23,617 nt of DNA from a virus. Under the pieces are notes generated by a model. It was not told where the DNA came from. It made no database searches and was given only the letters and a program-made list of their open reading frames with translations. Location of the stretch: the IMG/VR virus record IMGVR_UViG_3300001460_000167, positions 23 through 23,639 of that record, one strand, 5' to 3'. Every line of letters starts with the position of its first letter. The first letter of the stretch is position 1. Positions 3,080-16,586 of the stretch are shown here, one piece after another. The translations under genes and the position numbers were made by a program.

Positions 3080-3222
3080 TGATAATGTTCGGTAATTCAT
3101 ATCACAAAGTCTGTCAAAATTGTGGCAGAGCACACTCTGGTAGAATTACCGAACAATTTAAAGATGGTGATGGTAAAATTATTGAAATAGTAGTGTGTAC
3201 AGAGGCAAGATACAATGAATAA
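3079..3222 (+). CDS. Small zinc-ribbon-like protein of 47 aa
   Basis: Starts in the TAATG overlap with the 2957 gene and ends eight bases inside the next gene (start 3215), so it is translationally coupled on both sides. The product carries C12-x2-C15 followed by a His (residue 19) and a later Cys (40), which could form a small zinc site, although one ligand of a canonical ribbon is missing. Its coding sequence contains both arms of a perfect 12-bp inverted repeat (see the separate entry). Function unknown. Confidence 0.6.
   Translation: MIMFGNSYHKVCQNCGRAHSGRITEQFKDGDGKIIEIVVCTEARYNE
3087..3154 (+). repeat. Perfect 12-bp inverted repeat inside a small ORF
   Basis: GTTCGGTAATTC at 3087-3098 is the exact reverse complement of GAATTACCGAAC at 3143-3154, with a 44-base gap. 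Both arms lie in the 47-aa ORF. A transcript could form a 12-bp stem that puts the body of this gene in a large loop. Confidence 0.75.
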
Positions 3223-3820
3223 AACATTTAAGAATTTAGTAAAAGAACTTGATGAAAGAAAAATCAAACCTATGTATCATCATGTACTAAAAGGTAAAGT
3301 TGTTGCAAGTGGTAGTGCATCAAATATGAGGAAGTTAGTAAAGAAAAATGGTAAAACAGTTGACAAAGGCCCAAATTCTAATTATGTTCTTAACTCGCCT
3401 GGTGCAAAGGTTGGAGATATAGAAGAATTAGGCGGTGCATATAGTTATGCATATATGGACCAACACCCTGTTGCTAATTTAAATGCAGCTAAGTTTAGTA
3501 ATGATATGATTAATAAACTTAAAAAAACATATGAACCCTTAAAAGGTAAAAAGATTAATCCAACACCTTTGATGAAAATATTTGATAAGATTGATTCAAA
3601 TAAAGATGGTTTGATTCAATTATATAAAGCAGATATACCTTTCGTTAGTATGATGGCAATGTCAAGACTTATGCTAAAACACAATTATAAAGCATCTGAT
3701 ATAAACAAACTTGGGAAAATCAGAAGAGAAGATTTTGTAGATGAAAAATTTGCTTCAGATGCCCAAAGAAAAGCAGCATTTGCAAGTGGTTACAAAGCAA
3801 AAGGTAAAAAGAAAAAATGA
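3215..3820 (+). CDS. Basic phage protein with EF-hand-like calcium loop
   Basis: A 201-residue, lysine-rich protein (very basic C-terminus GYKAKGKKKK). Residues 127-138 (DSNKDGLIQLYK) fit the first nine positions of an EF-hand loop (D-x-N-x-D-G-x-I), but the twelfth position is Lys in place of Glu, so calcium affinity may be weak or the match may be incidental. There is no signal peptide or membrane segment. It overlaps the upstream small ORF by eight bases and the spanin gene by four (ATGA, 3817-3820). It lies just ahead of the lysis genes, and a virion protein is possible. No family assignment is made. Confidence 0.7.
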   Translation: MNKTFKNLVKELDERKIKPMYHHVLKGKVVASGSASNMRKLVKKNGKTVDKGPNSNYVLNSPGAKVGDIEELGGAYSYAYMDQHPVANLNAAKFSNDMINKLKKTYEPLKGKKINPTPLMKIFDKIDSNKDGLIQLYKADIPFVSMMAMSRLMLKHNYKASDINKLGKIRREDFVDEKFASDAQRKAAFASGYKAKGKKKK

Positions 3821-8997: not shown

Positions 8998-9365
8998 AGA
9001 CAAGTTCAGCTAAGGCAAAAGGTAGAAAACTACAACAATGGTTTCGTGATGTATTAATTGAAGAATTAAAAATTCATGAAGAAGATATTGAATCTAGAAG
9101 TATGGGTGCAGGTGGTGAAGATTTAATCATGGCCAGAGCTGCTAGAGAAAAATTTCCATATTCAATAGAATGCAAGAATCAAGAAAAAGTAAATGTATGG
9201 GAAGCATACAAACAATCAACAGAGAATTGTGGTAAGTATGAACCCATTGTCGTTATTAAAAAAAACAATGTAAAACCACTTGTTTTGTTAGATGCAGAAG
9301 CATTTGTAAAACTTCATAATAGTTTACCAAAAGAATATACAATAGACGAACTGTTAAAAGATTGA
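8994..9365 (+). CDS. PD-(D/E)XK nuclease, Holliday-junction-resolvase-like
   Basis: A 123-residue protein with the PD-(D/E)XK nuclease core: D43 in the GGEDLIM turn, then E59-x-K61 (YSIECKNQ), followed by a helix with a Gln-containing motif (VWEAYKQS). Length and spacing match small phage and archaeal resolvase-type endonucleases, which cut branched DNA during recombination and packaging. The very basic N-terminus (KAKGRKLQQWFRD) is typical of the group. It overlaps the zinc-ribbon gene by four bases. Exact substrate specificity cannot be read from the sequence. Confidence 0.8.
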   Translation: MKTSSAKAKGRKLQQWFRDVLIEELKIHEEDIESRSMGAGGEDLIMARAAREKFPYSIECKNQEKVNVWEAYKQSTENCGKYEPIVVIKKNNVKPLVLLDAEAFVKLHNSLPKEYTIDELLKD

Positions 9366-9367
9366 CT

Positions 9368-9428
9368 GTCAAATAATAGCATATGTCAAATAGTTGACCA
9401 TCTATAAATATTATAGAGAGGAAAAACT
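9368..9428 (+). promoter_or_regulatory. Late promoter module, copy B (TATAAATA with GTCA/TGAC half-sites)
   Basis: This is the second copy of the 61-base block at 5389-5449, with every landmark at the same offset: GTCAAATAATAG at 9368, GTCA at 9385, TGAC at 9395, TATAAATA at 9403-9410 and the start codon at +61. Here the inner half-sites form the palindrome GTCAA-atag-TTGAC. About 45 of 61 bases match copy A, with the half-sites and late box identical and the linkers diverged. Confidence 0.75.
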
Positions 9429-9584
9429 ATGGAATCAATAGACATATTAGACATTATTAATACATTATGGCCTATAGCTTTGGGGTTTGTTGGTTTAGTT
9501 ATCGTATTAGCGAAAATGCACACCTCAATAGAAGTCCTTCAAGAAAAAGTTAAAGCACTCTTTGACCTTCACAATAAAAAATAA
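9429..9584 (+). CDS. Small membrane protein of 51 aa, late-expressed
   Basis: A 51-residue product with one transmembrane helix (about 12-29, TLWPIALGFVGLVIVLAK) followed by a short amphipathic or coiled-coil tail (VLQEKVKALFDLHNK). It is preceded by AGAGAGG and by late promoter copy B, the only gene here besides the 5450 gene to have that module. Its layout mirrors the 138-aa protein (membrane helix plus coiled coil), so the two could act together at the membrane; a second holin or antiholin is one possibility. Similar tiny proteins occur in marine T4-like phages, to my recollection. Confidence 0.65.
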   Translation: MESIDILDIINTLWPIALGFVGLVIVLAKMHTSIEVLQEKVKALFDLHNKK

Positions 9585-9602
9585 TTTATTTGCAAAACAC
9601 CC

Positions 9603-9631
9603 TTGACAATGCTATTAATGCATAGTATAAT
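9603..9631 (+). promoter_or_regulatory. Consensus sigma70-like early promoter
   Basis: Perfect TTGACA (9603-9608) and TATAAT (9626-9631) with a 17-base spacer, followed after about 25 bases by a purine-rich ribosome binding region and the ATG at 9664. A full-consensus promoter is typical of phage early genes that compete for host RNA polymerase. Confidence 0.9.
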
Positions 9632-9663: not shown

Positions 9664-9939
9664 ATGAAAAATATTACAACAGTTGTTGTGGAATCCACCC
9701 AAATGTTAAAACTAATGAATGAATTTGTAGATTATGTTTATAGTTTTTATGGTGAAGATGGTATCTATGACATGGGTGCCACTAGAGATAATATTTCCAC
9801 TGCAACTATTGACTATATTTCAAGTTTAAGTGTATATAATCACCATCAAAAATTTTGTGGTGATAGTCTTGATAGAGAAAGAGTAAGAGATATTCTTACA
9901 AGTAAGTTTAATTTAAAGGAGTTATATAATGACATATAG
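9664..9939 (+). CDS. Small early protein of 91 aa, unknown
   Basis: First gene behind the consensus promoter at 9603-9631. The product is acidic, soluble and rich in Asp, Tyr and Ser, with no recognised domain, signal or membrane segment. It overlaps the next gene by 11 bases. Early expression from a strong host-type promoter suggests a host-takeover or regulatory protein, by analogy with small T4 early genes. No function is assigned. Confidence 0.65.
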   Translation: MKNITTVVVESTQMLKLMNEFVDYVYSFYGEDGIYDMGATRDNISTATIDYISSLSVYNHHQKFCGDSLDRERVRDILTSKFNLKELYNDI

Positions 9940-10090
9940 AGAAACAATGAAAGATTTATTTAATAAACATAATGCAATGATGGCTGGTCAATATCCAGAC
10001 GGAGACTATTCAACAGAGTTTAAAAATATTTGTGATTTTTACTGTTTAGATTCACTTGCAGAATGGGAAAGTCTAGAAGATACCATCTAG
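9929..10090 (+). CDS. Small early protein of 53 aa, unknown
   Basis: ATG at 9929 follows a good ribosome binding site (AAAGGAG, 9916-9922) inside the end of the previous gene, and the frame runs to TAG at 10088-10090. The product is acidic and helical with two Cys (residues 34 and 39). It is the second cistron of the early unit and is followed at once by another promoter (10098). No family recognised. Confidence 0.6.
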   Translation: MTYRETMKDLFNKHNAMMAGQYPDGDYSTEFKNICDFYCLDSLAEWESLEDTI

Positions 10091-10097
10091 ACTGCTG

Positions 10098-10125
10098 TTG
10101 ACAAAGCTTATAGTTGTGATATACT
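10098..10125 (+). promoter_or_regulatory. Sigma70-like early promoter
   Basis: TTGACA (10098-10103) and TATACT (10120-10125) with a 16-base spacer, eight bases after the preceding stop codon. It would drive the 10165 gene and probably the run of genes to 12580, since no terminator is visible between them. Confidence 0.75.
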
Positions 10126-10164
10126 GTAAGAGTAATAATAATAATTAAATCAATGAGGTAAATA

Positions 10165-10332
10165 ATGATTTGGTGCTTTAACGAACACAGAGATATTCCA
10201 TTAGATATTAAACTATTTTTAGAGAATGCTTCTGGTGAATCTTTAAAAAAACTTTCAATAGAAGATATTAATAGTTTCTTAACAGGCTACGATAATTTTA
10301 ATAATGATATTTTAGGAAAGGATTATATATAA
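10165..10332 (+). CDS. Small early protein of 55 aa, unknown
   Basis: ATG at 10165 follows TGAGGTA (ribosome binding site near 10154-10160) and lies about 40 bases behind the 10098 promoter. The 55-residue acidic product has a helical middle (LKLFLENASGESLKKLSIED type spacing) and no recognised domain. The next gene starts one base after the stop, so this is the first cistron of an operon that includes Rnh. Confidence 0.6.
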   Translation: MIWCFNEHRDIPLDIKLFLENASGESLKKLSIEDINSFLTGYDNFNNDILGKDYI

Positions 10333-10333
10333 G

Positions 10334-10618
10334 ATGAAACATAATGGTTTTAAAAGAAATAATGACTTTGGTTTTAAAAAAAATAGAAATAAGTTTCAAG
10401 AACAAAAAACTAAGGGTTCTGCAGTTGTTGTTCAAAACAATAACATTGATAAAGCATTAAGAAAACTTAAAAAGAAATTACAAAAAGAAAACTTTTTCAA
10501 TGAATTAAGAAGTAGAGAGTTTTTTGAAACAAGAAGTGAAAAGAAAAGAAAAGAGAAAGCAGCGAGTACAAGAAGATGTATCAGAAAATCAGAAAAAATA
10601 AAAGAGTCAATGGTCTAA
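10334..10618 (+). CDS. Small, very basic protein of 94 aa, unknown
   Basis: The product is rich in Lys, Arg, Asn and Phe, with an N-terminal repeat-like stretch (NGFKRNNDFGFKKNRNKF) and a basic helical C-terminus. It has no hydrophobic segment. The strong positive charge suggests nucleic-acid binding, but this is only a compositional inference. It follows the 10165 gene by one base and overlaps the next gene by 43 bases. Confidence 0.6.
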   Translation: MKHNGFKRNNDFGFKKNRNKFQEQKTKGSAVVVQNNNIDKALRKLKKKLQKENFFNELRSREFFETRSEKKRKEKAASTRRCIRKSEKIKESMV

Positions 10619-10818
10619 AATGGACAGCTTGTGTTATATTAATATTAGAATTAATGTTGACCTCATTTAATATATATCCTCTTAACTTATATTTTATGGT
10701 TATAGGAACTTTTTTATGGATTATGGTCGCTTTCTTATGGAAAGAGACCTCATTAATGATATTAAATATAATGGCTTGTTTAATTGGTTTAACAGGAATA
10801 GTAAATTCATGGATATAA
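10576..10818 (+). CDS. Small membrane protein with about three hydrophobic helices
   Basis: An 80-residue product with a basic N-terminus (MYQKIRKNKRVNGLKW) followed by three hydrophobic segments (about 17-33, 36-54 and 59-78). It starts 43 bases inside the preceding gene in another frame; no downstream in-frame ATG gives a complete first helix, so this start is preferred although the ribosome binding site is weak. The pattern resembles small integral membrane proteins shared by marine T4-like phages. Function unknown. Confidence 0.65.
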   Translation: MYQKIRKNKRVNGLKWTACVILILELMLTSFNIYPLNLYFMVIGTFLWIMVAFLWKETSLMILNIMACLIGLTGIVNSWI

Positions 10819-12650: not shown

Positions 12651-12815
12651 ATGTTATTTTGGATTTATTTATTAATTGGATTTACGACCAGTTTCCTGGC
12701 GGCAGGTGCTGTTGACGGTGATACCTCTCTCACTACTCTTTCCGTCTTATCTGCCGTAGGAATCATGTTCTTATTATTAGCAATGTTTGAAAACTTTAGA
12801 AATGGCGAAGAATAA
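12651..12815 (+). CDS. Small two-helix membrane protein of 54 aa, atypical codon use
   Basis: The 54-residue product has two hydrophobic segments (about 3-19 and 29-46) separated by a short polar loop (VDGDTS) and a charged tail (ENFRNGEE), a hairpin topology. Codons are unlike those of the neighbours: CTG, GCG, CTC, TCC, GTC and GCC appear in a short span, where flanking genes prefer A/T-ending codons. It has its own promoter and terminator, so it is an autonomous single-gene unit directly upstream of a cell-wall hydrolase. It could be a holin or an early membrane effector; the sigma70-type promoter argues for early expression. Confidence 0.7.
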   Translation: MLFWIYLLIGFTTSFLAAGAVDGDTSLTTLSVLSAVGIMFLLLAMFENFRNGEE

Positions 12816-12826
12816 GAATGTGCATA

Positions 12827-12875
12827 AAGAAGTGCTAGAACATCAGTTTGATTATTCTAGCATTTCTTCTTTTTT
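12827..12875 (+). terminator. Rho-independent terminator after the 54-aa gene
   Basis: A 14-bp stem with one G-U pair is formed by 12827-12840 (AAGAAGTGCTAGAA) and 12855-12868 (TTCTAGCATTTCTT), with a 14-base loop, followed by six T residues (12870-12875). The ribosome binding site of the next gene (GGAG, 12881-12884) follows directly. Confidence 0.85.
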
Positions 12876-12891
12876 AACTAGGAGAGGTACT

Positions 12892-13476
12892 ATGTTAAAA
12901 TATGTCGTATTAGGAACAGCAATTTTTACTATTGGTGTTTCATTTTTCAATAAAAATGCACCAACTGATTGGACAGAAGGTTATCAAGTTAGTAAACTTG
13001 ATGTTTCATTTCCAGACATCACCCCAACAATAAATTATATTGACCATAATCAAGTTACTTGTCTTGCTAAGAATATGTATTTTGAAGCAAGAAGTGAAGG
13101 TATTGCAGGACTTGTTGCAACAACACAGGTTGTTTTAAATAGAGTTACAAGCGAACAATATCCAAATACTGTCTGCGGTGTAATTGAACAAGCAAAAATA
13201 TCACAGTGGTGGTTAAAAGAAAAAGGTATTAAAAAACCTATAAAAAACAAATGTCAATTTAGTTGGTTCTGTGATGGCTATTCAGATGAACCAAAAGATG
13301 AAAAGACTTATAATGAATTGTATATTCTTGCAGAAGAATTTGTTGCAGGTAAATACAAAAGAATGATTGATATTACTGACGGTGCCTTATGGTATCATGC
13401 AGATTATGTACACCCTAAATGGGCAAATAAAAAAGAAGTAACAACAAAAGTAGGAAGGCACATATTTTACAGATGA
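12892..13476 (+). CDS. SleB-type cell-wall hydrolase with N-terminal membrane or signal segment
   Basis: Cleaves peptidoglycan (hydrolase_2/SleB family, lytic-transglycosylase type). The frame opens at 12787, but the ATG at 12892 is chosen because it has GGAGAG seven bases upstream and lies after a terminator. The 194-residue product has an uncleaved-looking hydrophobic segment (4-19, YVVLGTAIFTIGVSFF), then the SleB core: CLAKNMYFEARSEG with catalytic E65 (or E69), TTQVVLNRV, the YPNTVCGVI block and CQFSWFCDG, which holds two Cys. The C-terminal GALWYHADYVHPKWA is also typical. The N-terminal anchor suggests a SAR-type endolysin, exported independently of a holin. It overlaps the next gene by four bases. 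Confidence 0.88.
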   Translation: MLKYVVLGTAIFTIGVSFFNKNAPTDWTEGYQVSKLDVSFPDITPTINYIDHNQVTCLAKNMYFEARSEGIAGLVATTQVVLNRVTSEQYPNTVCGVIEQAKISQWWLKEKGIKKPIKNKCQFSWFCDGYSDEPKDEKTYNELYILAEEFVAGKYKRMIDITDGALWYHADYVHPKWANKKEVTTKVGRHIFYR

Positions 13477-14197: not shown

Positions 14198-14375
14198 TGT
14201 TAGCAAATTAGATAGACTATTAATTGTACTAGACGAAATTAGAATTGCAAAAAAGTTTATTAAAGAAAATGGTCCTGAAGACATGGGGTATGTTCATACA
14301 GCAAAAAATTATTTAGAAGAAAGAGCTCAAAGTTTAAAAGAAGAATTAAACGAGGATTTAGGTTTCAATGCCTAG
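14184..14375 (+). CDS. Small helical protein of 63 aa, unknown
   Basis: ATG 14184 follows AAGGAG about nine bases upstream, inside the end of the previous gene. The product is entirely helical and charged (LDRLLIVLDEIRIAKKFIKE, then LEERAQSLKEELNEDLG) and soluble. It overlaps the next gene by eight bases. The tight coupling of four consecutive genes here supports all of them being real. No family recognised. Confidence 0.6.
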   Translation: MAKTNVSKLDRLLIVLDEIRIAKKFIKENGPEDMGYVHTAKNYLEERAQSLKEELNEDLGFNA

Positions 14376-14670
14376 ATACGATTTCTATGATGAGTCTAAG
14401 GAAGAATACTTTGATGAGTTCATGACTTATGATGAAAAAGTTAAATTCTTAAAAGACAATCCGAATATTGAACCTGCTGATTATTTAAATATGAATATAA
14501 TTGCTGGTGTTTCAAAATCACAGTTAGGTGATAGTGGTTGGAAAGACACTCTTAGTAAAATTGCAGAGAAGCATCCTACCAGCCCTTTGGCTGATAGGTA
14601 TGGAAAGAAAACGATTAAACAATTAAAGGCAAGAAGGGTATACGATAAGCATAAGCAAAGAACTAAATAA
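14368..14670 (+). CDS. Conserved marine T4-like phage protein of 100 aa
   Basis: The product has an acidic N-terminal part with aromatic residues (MPRYDFYDESKEEYFDEFMT), a middle block EKVKFLKDNPNIEPADY and a C-terminal block resembling a conserved phage hypothetical (LSKIAEKHPTSPLADRYGKK followed by basic residues). The N-terminus is reminiscent of FmdB-like regulators that have lost their zinc cysteines, but this is a weak impression. It precedes the SoxYZ-like gene by four bases, so it may be co-transcribed with it. Confidence 0.7.
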   Translation: MPRYDFYDESKEEYFDEFMTYDEKVKFLKDNPNIEPADYLNMNIIAGVSKSQLGDSGWKDTLSKIAEKHPTSPLADRYGKKTIKQLKARRVYDKHKQRTK

Positions 14671-14674
14671 TAGT

Positions 14675-15421
14675 ATGAAAATACTACTTTTACTTCTTTT
14701 ATTGTTACCTATTTCTCTACCTTCGGAAACTCATTTTTCTTGGGAAGAATGGATTAAAGATACTTTCCTTAATGAAGACTTCATGAAGGGCCTTGATGAA
14801 GATGTAGTTATAAATGATGGTACTGGGTTAATTGATATACAAGCACCATATCGTGCTTTAAATGGTGCAAATGTTCCAATTACAATTTCCACTAAATCAA
14901 GAGATATTTTAAAATATATCTTGATTGTTGATGAAAACCCAACACCATGTTGTGCAATATTTGAGTTTGATAATATGCCTGCATATGTTGAAACAAATAT
15001 TAGAGTTAATGCATATACTTATTTAAGAGTACTTGCAGAAGATAGATTTGGTGATGTATATATGGTAACAAAATTTATTAAAGCTGCTGGGGGTTGTTCG
15101 GCACCAGGTCTGATAGAATCTGGAAACCCAAAAGGTACGATAACTGTAAAAAGTCCTTATTCATACCCAGGTGTCACTAACTATCAATTCTGGCACCCTA
15201 ATTATAGTGGTATGCAATTTGACCAATTAACTAGAACAGAAATTCCAGCAGACTACATAGAGAAGGTAGATATTCAATTTGACAATTCTTCATTTCGTTA
15301 TGAAGGTACGATAGGAATTGCAGAGAATGTATATTTTAATTTAATAACTGAAAAGGGTGTCGGAACAATTACAGCTACAGATAGCGACGAAAATATTTTT
15401 AGTAAACAACTTGAGGATTAA
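14675..15421 (+). CDS. SoxYZ-like carrier of the quinoprotein dehydrogenase-associated type, secreted
   Basis: The 248-residue product has an N-terminal signal peptide (KILLLLLLLLPISLPS, cleavage near residue 17). A SoxY-like domain follows (about 45-145): IDIQAPYRALNGANVPI, then KYILIVDENPTP, IRVNAYTYLRVLAE and the carrier-site block KAAGGCSAPG with Cys141. The C-terminal SoxZ-like domain (about 153-245) has the diagnostic FWHPNYSGMQFDQLTR and the IGIAENVYF block. This fused SoxY-SoxZ layout is that of the carrier family associated with PQQ alcohol dehydrogenases in bacteria, not of the separate SoxY and SoxZ of thiosulfate oxidation. The protein should be periplasmic. Extra cysteines at 92-93 are notable. 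No clear ribosome binding site precedes the ATG. It looks like a host-derived auxiliary metabolic gene. Confidence 0.88.
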   Translation: MKILLLLLLLLPISLPSETHFSWEEWIKDTFLNEDFMKGLDEDVVINDGTGLIDIQAPYRALNGANVPITISTKSRDILKYILIVDENPTPCCAIFEFDNMPAYVETNIRVNAYTYLRVLAEDRFGDVYMVTKFIKAAGGCSAPGLIESGNPKGTITVKSPYSYPGVTNYQFWHPNYSGMQFDQLTRTEIPADYIEKVDIQFDNSSFRYEGTIGIAENVYFNLITEKGVGTITATDSDENIFSKQLED

Positions 15422-15423
15422 TT

Positions 15424-16128
15424 ATGGCAAAAAAACAAGATGTGAAACTTGATAATTTAGTTTCAATTAAACCAATCACAGACAATCAAAAATTAGTATT
15501 TGAAGCATGGAGAAAAAATAACAAGAATTTGTTTCTCTTTGGTGCAGCCGGTACAGGTAAAACTTTTGTATCACTATATTTAGCACTTGAACAAGTATTA
15601 GACCCAAAAACAAAATACGACAATGTAATTATTATTAGGTCTGTTGTGCCAACAAGAGATATTGGTTTCTTACCTGGTGATGAAGAAGATAAATCAGCAT
15701 TGTATCAAGTACCATATCATAACATGGTTCAATTTATGTTTGAACAAGCAAGTGATAATGCTTTCAGTATGTTGTATGATAGATTAAAAAATCAAGGTAG
15801 TATTACATTTTTGACAACTTCATATCTAAGAGGTATTACTCTGGACAATGCAATAGTAATTGTTGATGAATCACAGAATTTAAATTTTCATGAATTAGAT
15901 ACAGTTATTACAAGAGTTGGTCAAGATAGTAAGATTATATTTTGTGGTGATTTTTTTCAAACAGATTTATCTAAAATGTCAGAAAGAGAAGGCCTACAAG
16001 ATTTCATGAGAATTTTAGAACAAATGAAAGAATTTGAAGTTGTAGAATTTACAATAGGTGATATTGTTCGTTCAGGGTTTGTTCGTTCTTATCTTATAGA
16101 AAAGACTAAATTAGGGTTAGAACAATGA
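15424..16128 (+). CDS. phoH: PhoH-like ATPase
   Basis: A 234-residue P-loop ATPase of the PhoH family, very common in marine phages. Walker A is at 40-47 (GAAGTGKT) and Walker B at about 144-149 (IVIVDES, D148-E149). The family block RSVVPTRDIGFLPGDEEDK (72-90) and the GDFFQTDL sensor-like segment are present. PhoH proteins are linked to phosphate stress in bacteria, but their role in phages is unresolved and may concern RNA. It starts two bases after the SoxYZ-like stop and overlaps the M15 peptidase gene by four, so all are probably one operon. Confidence 0.95.
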   Translation: MAKKQDVKLDNLVSIKPITDNQKLVFEAWRKNNKNLFLFGAAGTGKTFVSLYLALEQVLDPKTKYDNVIIIRSVVPTRDIGFLPGDEEDKSALYQVPYHNMVQFMFEQASDNAFSMLYDRLKNQGSITFLTTSYLRGITLDNAIVIVDESQNLNFHELDTVITRVGQDSKIIFCGDFFQTDLSKMSEREGLQDFMRILEQMKEFEVVEFTIGDIVRSGFVRSYLIEKTKLGLEQ

Positions 16129-16586
16129 AACTATCAAAAAACTTTACAATAGCCGAATACATAAAATCTCAAACAGCAACAAGAAAAGATATTGATAATT
16201 CTTTATCTGAAGACCATTTAGAAAGTGCAAAACTTTTGTTTGCAAAAGTTGTACAACCTGTTAGAGAACAATGGGGAGTAACTGTTATCAATTCTGGTTA
16301 TAGAAGTCCTGCTTTAAATAAAGCAGTTGGTGGTAGTTCAAAAAGTCAACATTGTAAAGGTGAAGCTGTAGATTTAGAATGTGTTGGTGCTTCAAATGCT
16401 GAGGTTGCACAATGGATAGAAAGCACTTTAGAATTTGACCAACTTATACTAGAATTTTATACACCAGGTGACCCTAGAAGTGGTTGGGTTCATGTTTCTT
16501 ACAAAGAGAGTAATAATAGAAAATCAGTTCTTACAGCAAGTAAGATAAAAGGAAAAACTGTTTATAGTAAAGGACTTAATATATAA
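16125..16586 (+). CDS. Peptidase M15 family endolysin-like D-Ala-D-Ala peptidase
   Basis: The 153-residue protein has the M15 zinc-peptidase core, with zinc ligands H76 and D83 (QHCKGEAVD) and H123 (GWVHVSY) in order after the SGYRSPALNKAVGG block (57-70). Such enzymes cut peptide cross-bridges or terminal D-Ala in peptidoglycan. No signal peptide or membrane segment is present, so release would need a holin, unlike the SleB-type enzyme at 12892. It could alternatively be a virion-associated enzyme. It overlaps phoH by four bases and is followed two bases later by the oxygenase gene. Confidence 0.9.
   Translation: MKLSKNFTIAEYIKSQTATRKDIDNSLSEDHLESAKLLFAKVVQPVREQWGVTVINSGYRSPALNKAVGGSSKSQHCKGEAVDLECVGASNAEVAQWIESTLEFDQLILEFYTPGDPRSGWVHVSYKESNNRKSVLTASKIKGKTVYSKGLNI

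Follow-up and report, generated by a model that had tools for sequence, protein, structure and literature searches.

The window analyzed here, a stretch of 23,617 nucleotides, comes from an IMG/VR virus fragment of 26,285 bp that carries phage genes for DNA primase, class II RNR, gp32, PhoH, exonuclease, tape-measure protein, and endolysin, and it belongs to a T4-like marine phage. Its nearest cultured relatives are Melnitz, which grows on Methylophilales (gp32, 63%; PhoH, 71%), and two phages of Pelagibacter, Mosig and HTVC008M (gp32, 60%; PhoH, 63%). The gene considered here and its surroundings have the following features.

14368..14670, + strand: conserved phage gene of ~100 amino acids, the upstream neighbor at the insertion site, with homologues directly before phoH in Melnitz and HTVC008M
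14675..15421, + strand: fused SoxY-SoxZ carrier gene of the TIGR04557 type, 248 amino acids, ATG start
14675..14728, + strand: putative N-terminal signal peptide (approximately residues 1-18), read by eye; hydrophobic N termini recur among the viral relatives
14816..15097, + strand: SoxY domain, residues 48-141 (Pfam PF13501); Foldseek ranks SoxY chains highest, from SoxYZ complexes with solved structures
14948..14953, + strand: vicinal dicysteine Cys92-Cys93 in NPTPCC, found in 47/47 distinct clade sequences and 0/130 bacterial fused sequences
15089..15097, + strand: GGC carrier site with Cys141 (AAGGCSAP), invariant in the alignment; canonical SoxY has GGCGG
15191..15406, + strand: SoxZ domain, residues 173-244 (Pfam PF08770)
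15194..15211, + strand: HPNYSG block; canonical SoxZ has mostly HPMETG
15424..16128, + strand: phoH-like gene, separated from the carrier by 2 bp on its 3' side (phrog_170, E = 1.6e-90), which flanks the carrier in window-type loci

The ~100-amino acid gene and phoH adjoin in Melnitz and HTVC008M, separated by ~15 and ~136 bp, respectively, and the carrier has therefore been inserted at a constant position. On either side of it lie genes for cell-wall enzymes, one a SleB-type hydrolase (12787-13476) and the other an M15 peptidase (16125-16586), and the window also encodes a 201-residue phage protein with a weak EF-hand calcium-binding match (3215-3820).

The original prediction described a secreted protein with fused SoxY and SoxZ domains, a GGC carrier site, and an HPNYSG block, and each of these elements was recovered. 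Both Pfam domains lie on a single chain and pass the curated cut-offs (SoxY, E = 2.5e-23; SoxZ, E = 2.6e-8), Cys141 is encoded by 15095-15097, and the N terminus, MKILLLLLLLLPISLPSE, is hydrophobic and looks by eye like a signal peptide, so that the carrier is predicted to be exported to the periplasm. An AlphaFold model (mean pLDDT of 77) is nearest to SoxY chains, the best solved matches of its SoxY half being the SoxYZ complexes 2oxg and 4uwq. A search of a viral structure library with the same model returned generic Ig-like matches only, as might be expected of a virion or other structural Ig-like protein that merely resembles SoxYZ; with strong family scores, an invariant carrier site, a putative signal peptide, and non-structural genes around it, such a protein is scarcely credible here. 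Models of anti-phage defense proteins gave zero matches.

In an NCBIfam scan, the carrier scored 141.9 bits with TIGR04557, the model for quinoprotein dehydrogenase-associated SoxYZ-like carriers (cut-off 140), against 52.9 bits with the true SoxY model (cut-off 125) and 18.7 bits with the true SoxZ model (cut-off 76). The TIGR04557 score is marginal because the phage protein is shorter and divergent. Adjacent canonical SoxY and SoxZ pairs, with the stop between them read through, can also exceed 140 bits; the bit score alone was therefore discarded as proof of family, and the assignment was based on models built for each group and on diagnostic columns. Each of the 45 full-length sequences of the clade is matched best by the model of alphaproteobacterial fused carriers (mean of 171 bits), compared with 156 bits for gammaproteobacterial fused carriers and 75 bits for canonical SoxY plus SoxZ. 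Fused and canonical proteins can be told apart at 20 columns, and the phage consensus agrees with the fused type at 15 of them and with the canonical type at 3. Judged by sequence, the phage carrier is securely a member of the TIGR04557-type family rather than a canonical thiosulfate SoxY/SoxZ, in agreement with the quinoprotein dehydrogenase-associated type first proposed.

The closest named relatives are the TIGR04557 carriers themselves, such as PP_2677 in the ped cluster of Pseudomonas putida and the carrier of the META1p1703-1705 region of Methylobacterium extorquens, with which the phage protein shares the Y-Z order of the fusion, a putative export signal, the AAGGCSAP site, and the HPN block. 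It differs from them in being phage-borne, shorter, and divergent, in having an extra Cys-Cys, and in the lack of a XoxF gene beside it in the window. Canonical SoxY and SoxZ have the same folds but are encoded by separate genes located with soxAXB, and they carry the HPMETG block and a C-terminal GGCGG arm, which the phage protein lacks, its GGCSAP sitting inside the chain. The TIGR04557 model mixes at least two kinds of fused SoxYZ: a bacterial fused subfamily with GGGC[TS] and mostly HPMDTG (L208, L211-L215, and L218-L220) also passes it.

Adjacency to a PQQ dehydrogenase is a feature of context that lies outside the sequence definition of the family and is not expected for an isolated phage gene. 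Among the window ORFs and the window genes scanned, no gene for XoxF, another PQQ dehydrogenase, or PQQ synthesis was seen. To place the bacterial relatives, we drew 241 Alphaproteobacteria genomes evenly, 19 of which have a one-frame fused carrier above the cut-off. A PQQ alcohol dehydrogenase above the cut-off is present in 16 of these 19 genomes versus 57 of the 241 overall (Fisher p = 8.6e-9, uncorrected for phylogeny), and in 13 of the 16 it is close by on the same contig as the fused carrier. The corresponding figures for SoxB are 3/19 and 22/241 (Fisher p = 0.24, uncorrected for phylogeny). In these Alphaproteobacteria, the presence of the fused carrier follows that of PQQ alcohol dehydrogenases and not that of SoxB.

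The bacterial lineage nearest to the phage sequences consists of streamlined marine HIMB59-type Alphaproteobacteria, in the clade of MAG MED-G10, with genomes of 1.0-1.4 Mb. Here xoxF is divergent from the carrier and 0.4-0.6 kb away in all of the 18 loci, out of 20, whose contigs extend to that distance, and beyond it lie xoxG, xoxJ, and usually pqqE. SoxB above the cut-off was found in 0 of 19 HIMB59-type genomes, and a search for SoxA in 21 genomes gave zero matches, as did its controls, none of them a positive control. The partner Zn hydrolase of the relay, TIGR04559, scores above its cut-off in 15 of 21 genomes of the marine streamlined group. A review of the ped cluster notes the association of soxYZ-like genes with PQQ enzymes and suggests maturation, redox control, or PQQ protection, a role that it regards as not settled; P. 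putida knockouts had a minimal phenotype without lanthanides (PMC12997753).

Relatives of the carrier occur on 63 other IMG/VR viral contigs, and homologues number 0 among 50,697 GenBank records of cultured phages. The window-type relatives are under purifying selection (pairwise dN/dS of 0.14-0.52), and this, together with the recurrence on 63 contigs, argues that the ORF is not a chance one. Two genome arrangements are found in the clade. In group A, to which the window belongs, the carrier lies between the conserved ~100-amino acid gene and phoH. In group B (L049-L053, L055-L063, L147, and L148), it is sited elsewhere and is followed without exception by a gene for an A-type iron-sulfur carrier; IscU is present in most loci, and SdhB is present in several. 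The gene directly 3' of the soxYZ-like gene is IscA/ErpA-like (L057:5556-5888 and L148:5036-5359, and also L276:6717-7046); the L276 protein, from a separate capture, has only 29% identity to the group B IscA-type proteins. The phage stretch L148 further encodes a peroxiredoxin-like protein (9071-9604) and a PstS phosphate-binding protein (9680-10726).

A pattern scan that was not tied to the window clade revealed further phages with a carrier. In L273 and L277/L278, its neighbors are gp32-UvsX and the major head protein, and in L274-L276, they are UvsX and a DnaB-type helicase. All of these lineages match TIGR04557 at 238-264 bits, and every viral copy found is of the TIGR04557 type. A viral scan with a single query, one gammaproteobacterial carrier, gave zero matches. 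L274/L276 are nested in the tree with sequences from two marine alphaproteobacterial genomes (support of 100); counted with the window clade and the L273/L277 pair, this points to at least three acquisitions of the carrier gene by phages. The carrier is a phage auxiliary metabolic gene in that it is of bacterial type, has phage genes on both sides in loci of the window type, and has a dN/dS below 1.

Contrary to the original prediction, which took the gene to be undescribed as a phage auxiliary gene, Kieft et al. 2021 reported fused soxYZ with "ggCs" and "CC" motifs in 44 phage sequences and cited an earlier report from epipelagic ocean viruses (PMC8190135). Judged by motifs and source metagenomes, their sequences probably overlap with ours: both sets are the same fused protein with the ggCs and CC motifs, from marine myoviruses in IMG/VR. 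They read the gene as serving thiosulfate oxidation, with mainly gammaproteobacterial hosts of the SUP05/Thioglobus type and Methylophilaceae as possible hosts (PMC8190135), whereas we read it as a XoxF-type carrier of phages with HIMB59-type hosts. A phage carrier that supplements host SoxYZ and yields more electrons through SoxB and SoxCD would account for the SoxY and SoxZ folds and the carrier cysteine, and SoxB does occur in 3 of the 19 fused-carrier genomes; the thiosulfate function itself was inferred from annotation (PMC8190135). It is at odds with GGCS in place of GGCGG, HPNYSG in place of HPMETG, scores that drop by half under the canonical models, and the 0/19 count for SoxB in the nearest relatives. 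From the viral side, 24 pattern matches to a canonical GGCGG SoxY in the collection used for the pattern scan yielded 0 confirmed cases, and the other viral lineages score as ordinary TIGR04557 proteins. We therefore regard the published thiosulfate reading as probably wrong, since the sequence characters point to a carrier linked to XoxF and PQQ, and we give a thiosulfate role little credence. What is new here is the reading of viral soxYZ as a XoxF-linked carrier, together with the link to HIMB59-type hosts, the evidence for three captures, and the dicysteine confined to the window clade. Phage soxYZ serves as a marker in published estimates of the phage contribution to ocean thiosulfate oxidation, and phages hold a 34% share of soxYZ in Tara Oceans samples (PMC8190135); if it is a XoxF accessory, those estimates describe methanol/C1 oxidation, and the host group changes as well.

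Three trees recover the window-clade phage sequences as one clade with full support, on a long stem branch. The bacterial donor, for which the original prediction looked to a tree, is only partly settled in this way: the phage clade joins the streamlined marine Alphaproteobacteria with SH-aLRT support of 96 and 95 in two trees and 78 in the reduced tree, which speaks for a HIMB59-type source, but under the AU test (p = 0.38) the phage clade may equally branch outside the bacterial fused carriers as a whole. The tree alone was accordingly discarded as proof of the donor, and a HIMB59-type lineage is named here as the probable one.

Host assignment draws on other phage-borne genes. SdhB, the iron-sulfur subunit of succinate dehydrogenase, is present on group B contigs (L057:1403-2155 on the - strand, and also L050, L052, L053, L055, and L058) and on the group A contig L013 (3134-3865), which is syntenic with the window. 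Compared with the 241 Alphaproteobacteria, phage SdhB has its four best matches in genomes that are all of the HIMB59 type (72-75%), the next best being at 65%; other HIMB59-type genomes give 72-76%, and two small gammaproteobacterial genomes give 67-69%. In the SdhB tree, the phage clade, with both phage lineages, stands beside the HIMB59-type sequences. Two gammaproteobacterial genomes of ~1 Mb with canonical SoxYZ (G409 and G618; L267 and L268) have SdhB that groups with HIMB59-type SdhB. Phage IscU is 77-81% identical to that of most marine Alphaproteobacteria tested and 69-74% to that of Gammaproteobacteria. RNR was uninformative as a host marker, its closest matches, at 62-64%, being to phages of SAR116, roseobacter, and Sinorhizobium. 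Neither SdhB nor IscU is seen in the window record itself, and its host is therefore assigned from its relatives; on this basis, we infer that the hosts are HIMB59-type bacteria.

Taken together, these data suggest, with a probability that we put at roughly 60%, that the phage carries an auxiliary metabolic gene whose product is an exported thiol carrier like those of the XoxF "quinoprotein relay" and sustains methanol/alcohol oxidation in the host periplasm. The carrier would be produced by the phage during infection and exported to the host periplasm, where Cys141, on its flexible Gly-Gly-Cys arm, may dock with the host's XoxF support machinery. There it would take a sulfur or thiol adduct from the PQQ dehydrogenase or bring redox equivalents to it, and methanol/alcohol oxidation and electron flow into the respiratory chain would be maintained in the infected cell. 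The XoxF proteins matched in the bacterial carrier loci have a vicinal Cys-Cys in 57 of 57 cases. The presumed benefit to host respiration fits the phage SdhB and iron-sulfur assembly genes. A precedent is provided by T4-like Methylophilaceae phages of Lake Baikal, which carry methanol dehydrogenase and PqqA (PMC7678222). These phages would act on the same host process, PQQ-dependent methanol oxidation, but they are freshwater phages of another host group and carry the enzyme and a cofactor precursor, whereas the window phage carries an accessory carrier. Against support of XoxF weigh the function of the bacterial carrier, itself unproven, with the minimal phenotype of the P. putida knockouts, the lack of XoxF and PQQ-synthesis genes among those seen in the window, the indirect host assignment, the long phage branch, the extra Cys-Cys, the permissive AU test, and the marginal TIGR04557 score, which read-through canonical pairs can also reach. 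A viral carrier that is under selection and has been captured repeatedly is one that matters under infection, and it offers a compact form to test.

As for the chemistry, still hypothetical in bacteria as well, the reading we favor is that the carrier would maintain or protect XoxF together with its vicinal disulfide. One variant would be a detoxifying carrier that removes sulfur species, or aldehyde adducts arising in alcohol oxidation, that could otherwise poison PQQ, so that XoxF is protected and not driven. The ped-cluster review suggests protection of PQQ from sulfur nucleophiles, and methanol growth of Hyphomicrobium is inhibited by thiosulfate (PMC12997753). The adduct could be released by a SoxH-like hydrolase partner. 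This proposal is a sub-case of XoxF support, inseparable from it by sequence; we rate it as possible but less than likely, its probability overlapping with that of XoxF support.

The motif NPTPCC or NPSPCC, which was absent from the original description of the SoxY domain, occurs only in the window clade, where all 47 distinct sequences have it, versus none of the 130 bacterial fused sequences (some of them near-duplicates). Three cysteines are present in 45 of the 47 phage clade sequences, compared with mostly one in the bacterial proteins. The pair was discarded as a mark of every phage copy, as other phage lineages lack it. In the window clade, the extra Cys-Cys suggests a changed chemistry. 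One form this might take is a remodeled periplasmic redox protein in which Cys92-Cys93 and Cys141 form a three-thiol module that no longer partners XoxF and instead targets reactive sulfur or disulfides in the host envelope. The distribution of the cysteines and the long stem branch are what it would lead one to expect; the carrier motif, the HPN block, and the fused architecture are, however, wholly kept, and the other viral lineages have the ordinary form without CC, and we regard such a protein as unlikely. Also doubtful is that, in phages of abundant, streamlined ocean bacteria, a XoxF carrier with one thiol has become a redox module with three (Cys92-Cys93 and Cys141), through which the phage takes control of how oxidized or reduced the lanthanide methanol dehydrogenase of its host is. 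If this holds, methanol oxidation, rather than the sulfur cycle, would be where every phage "soxYZ" gene described so far belongs.
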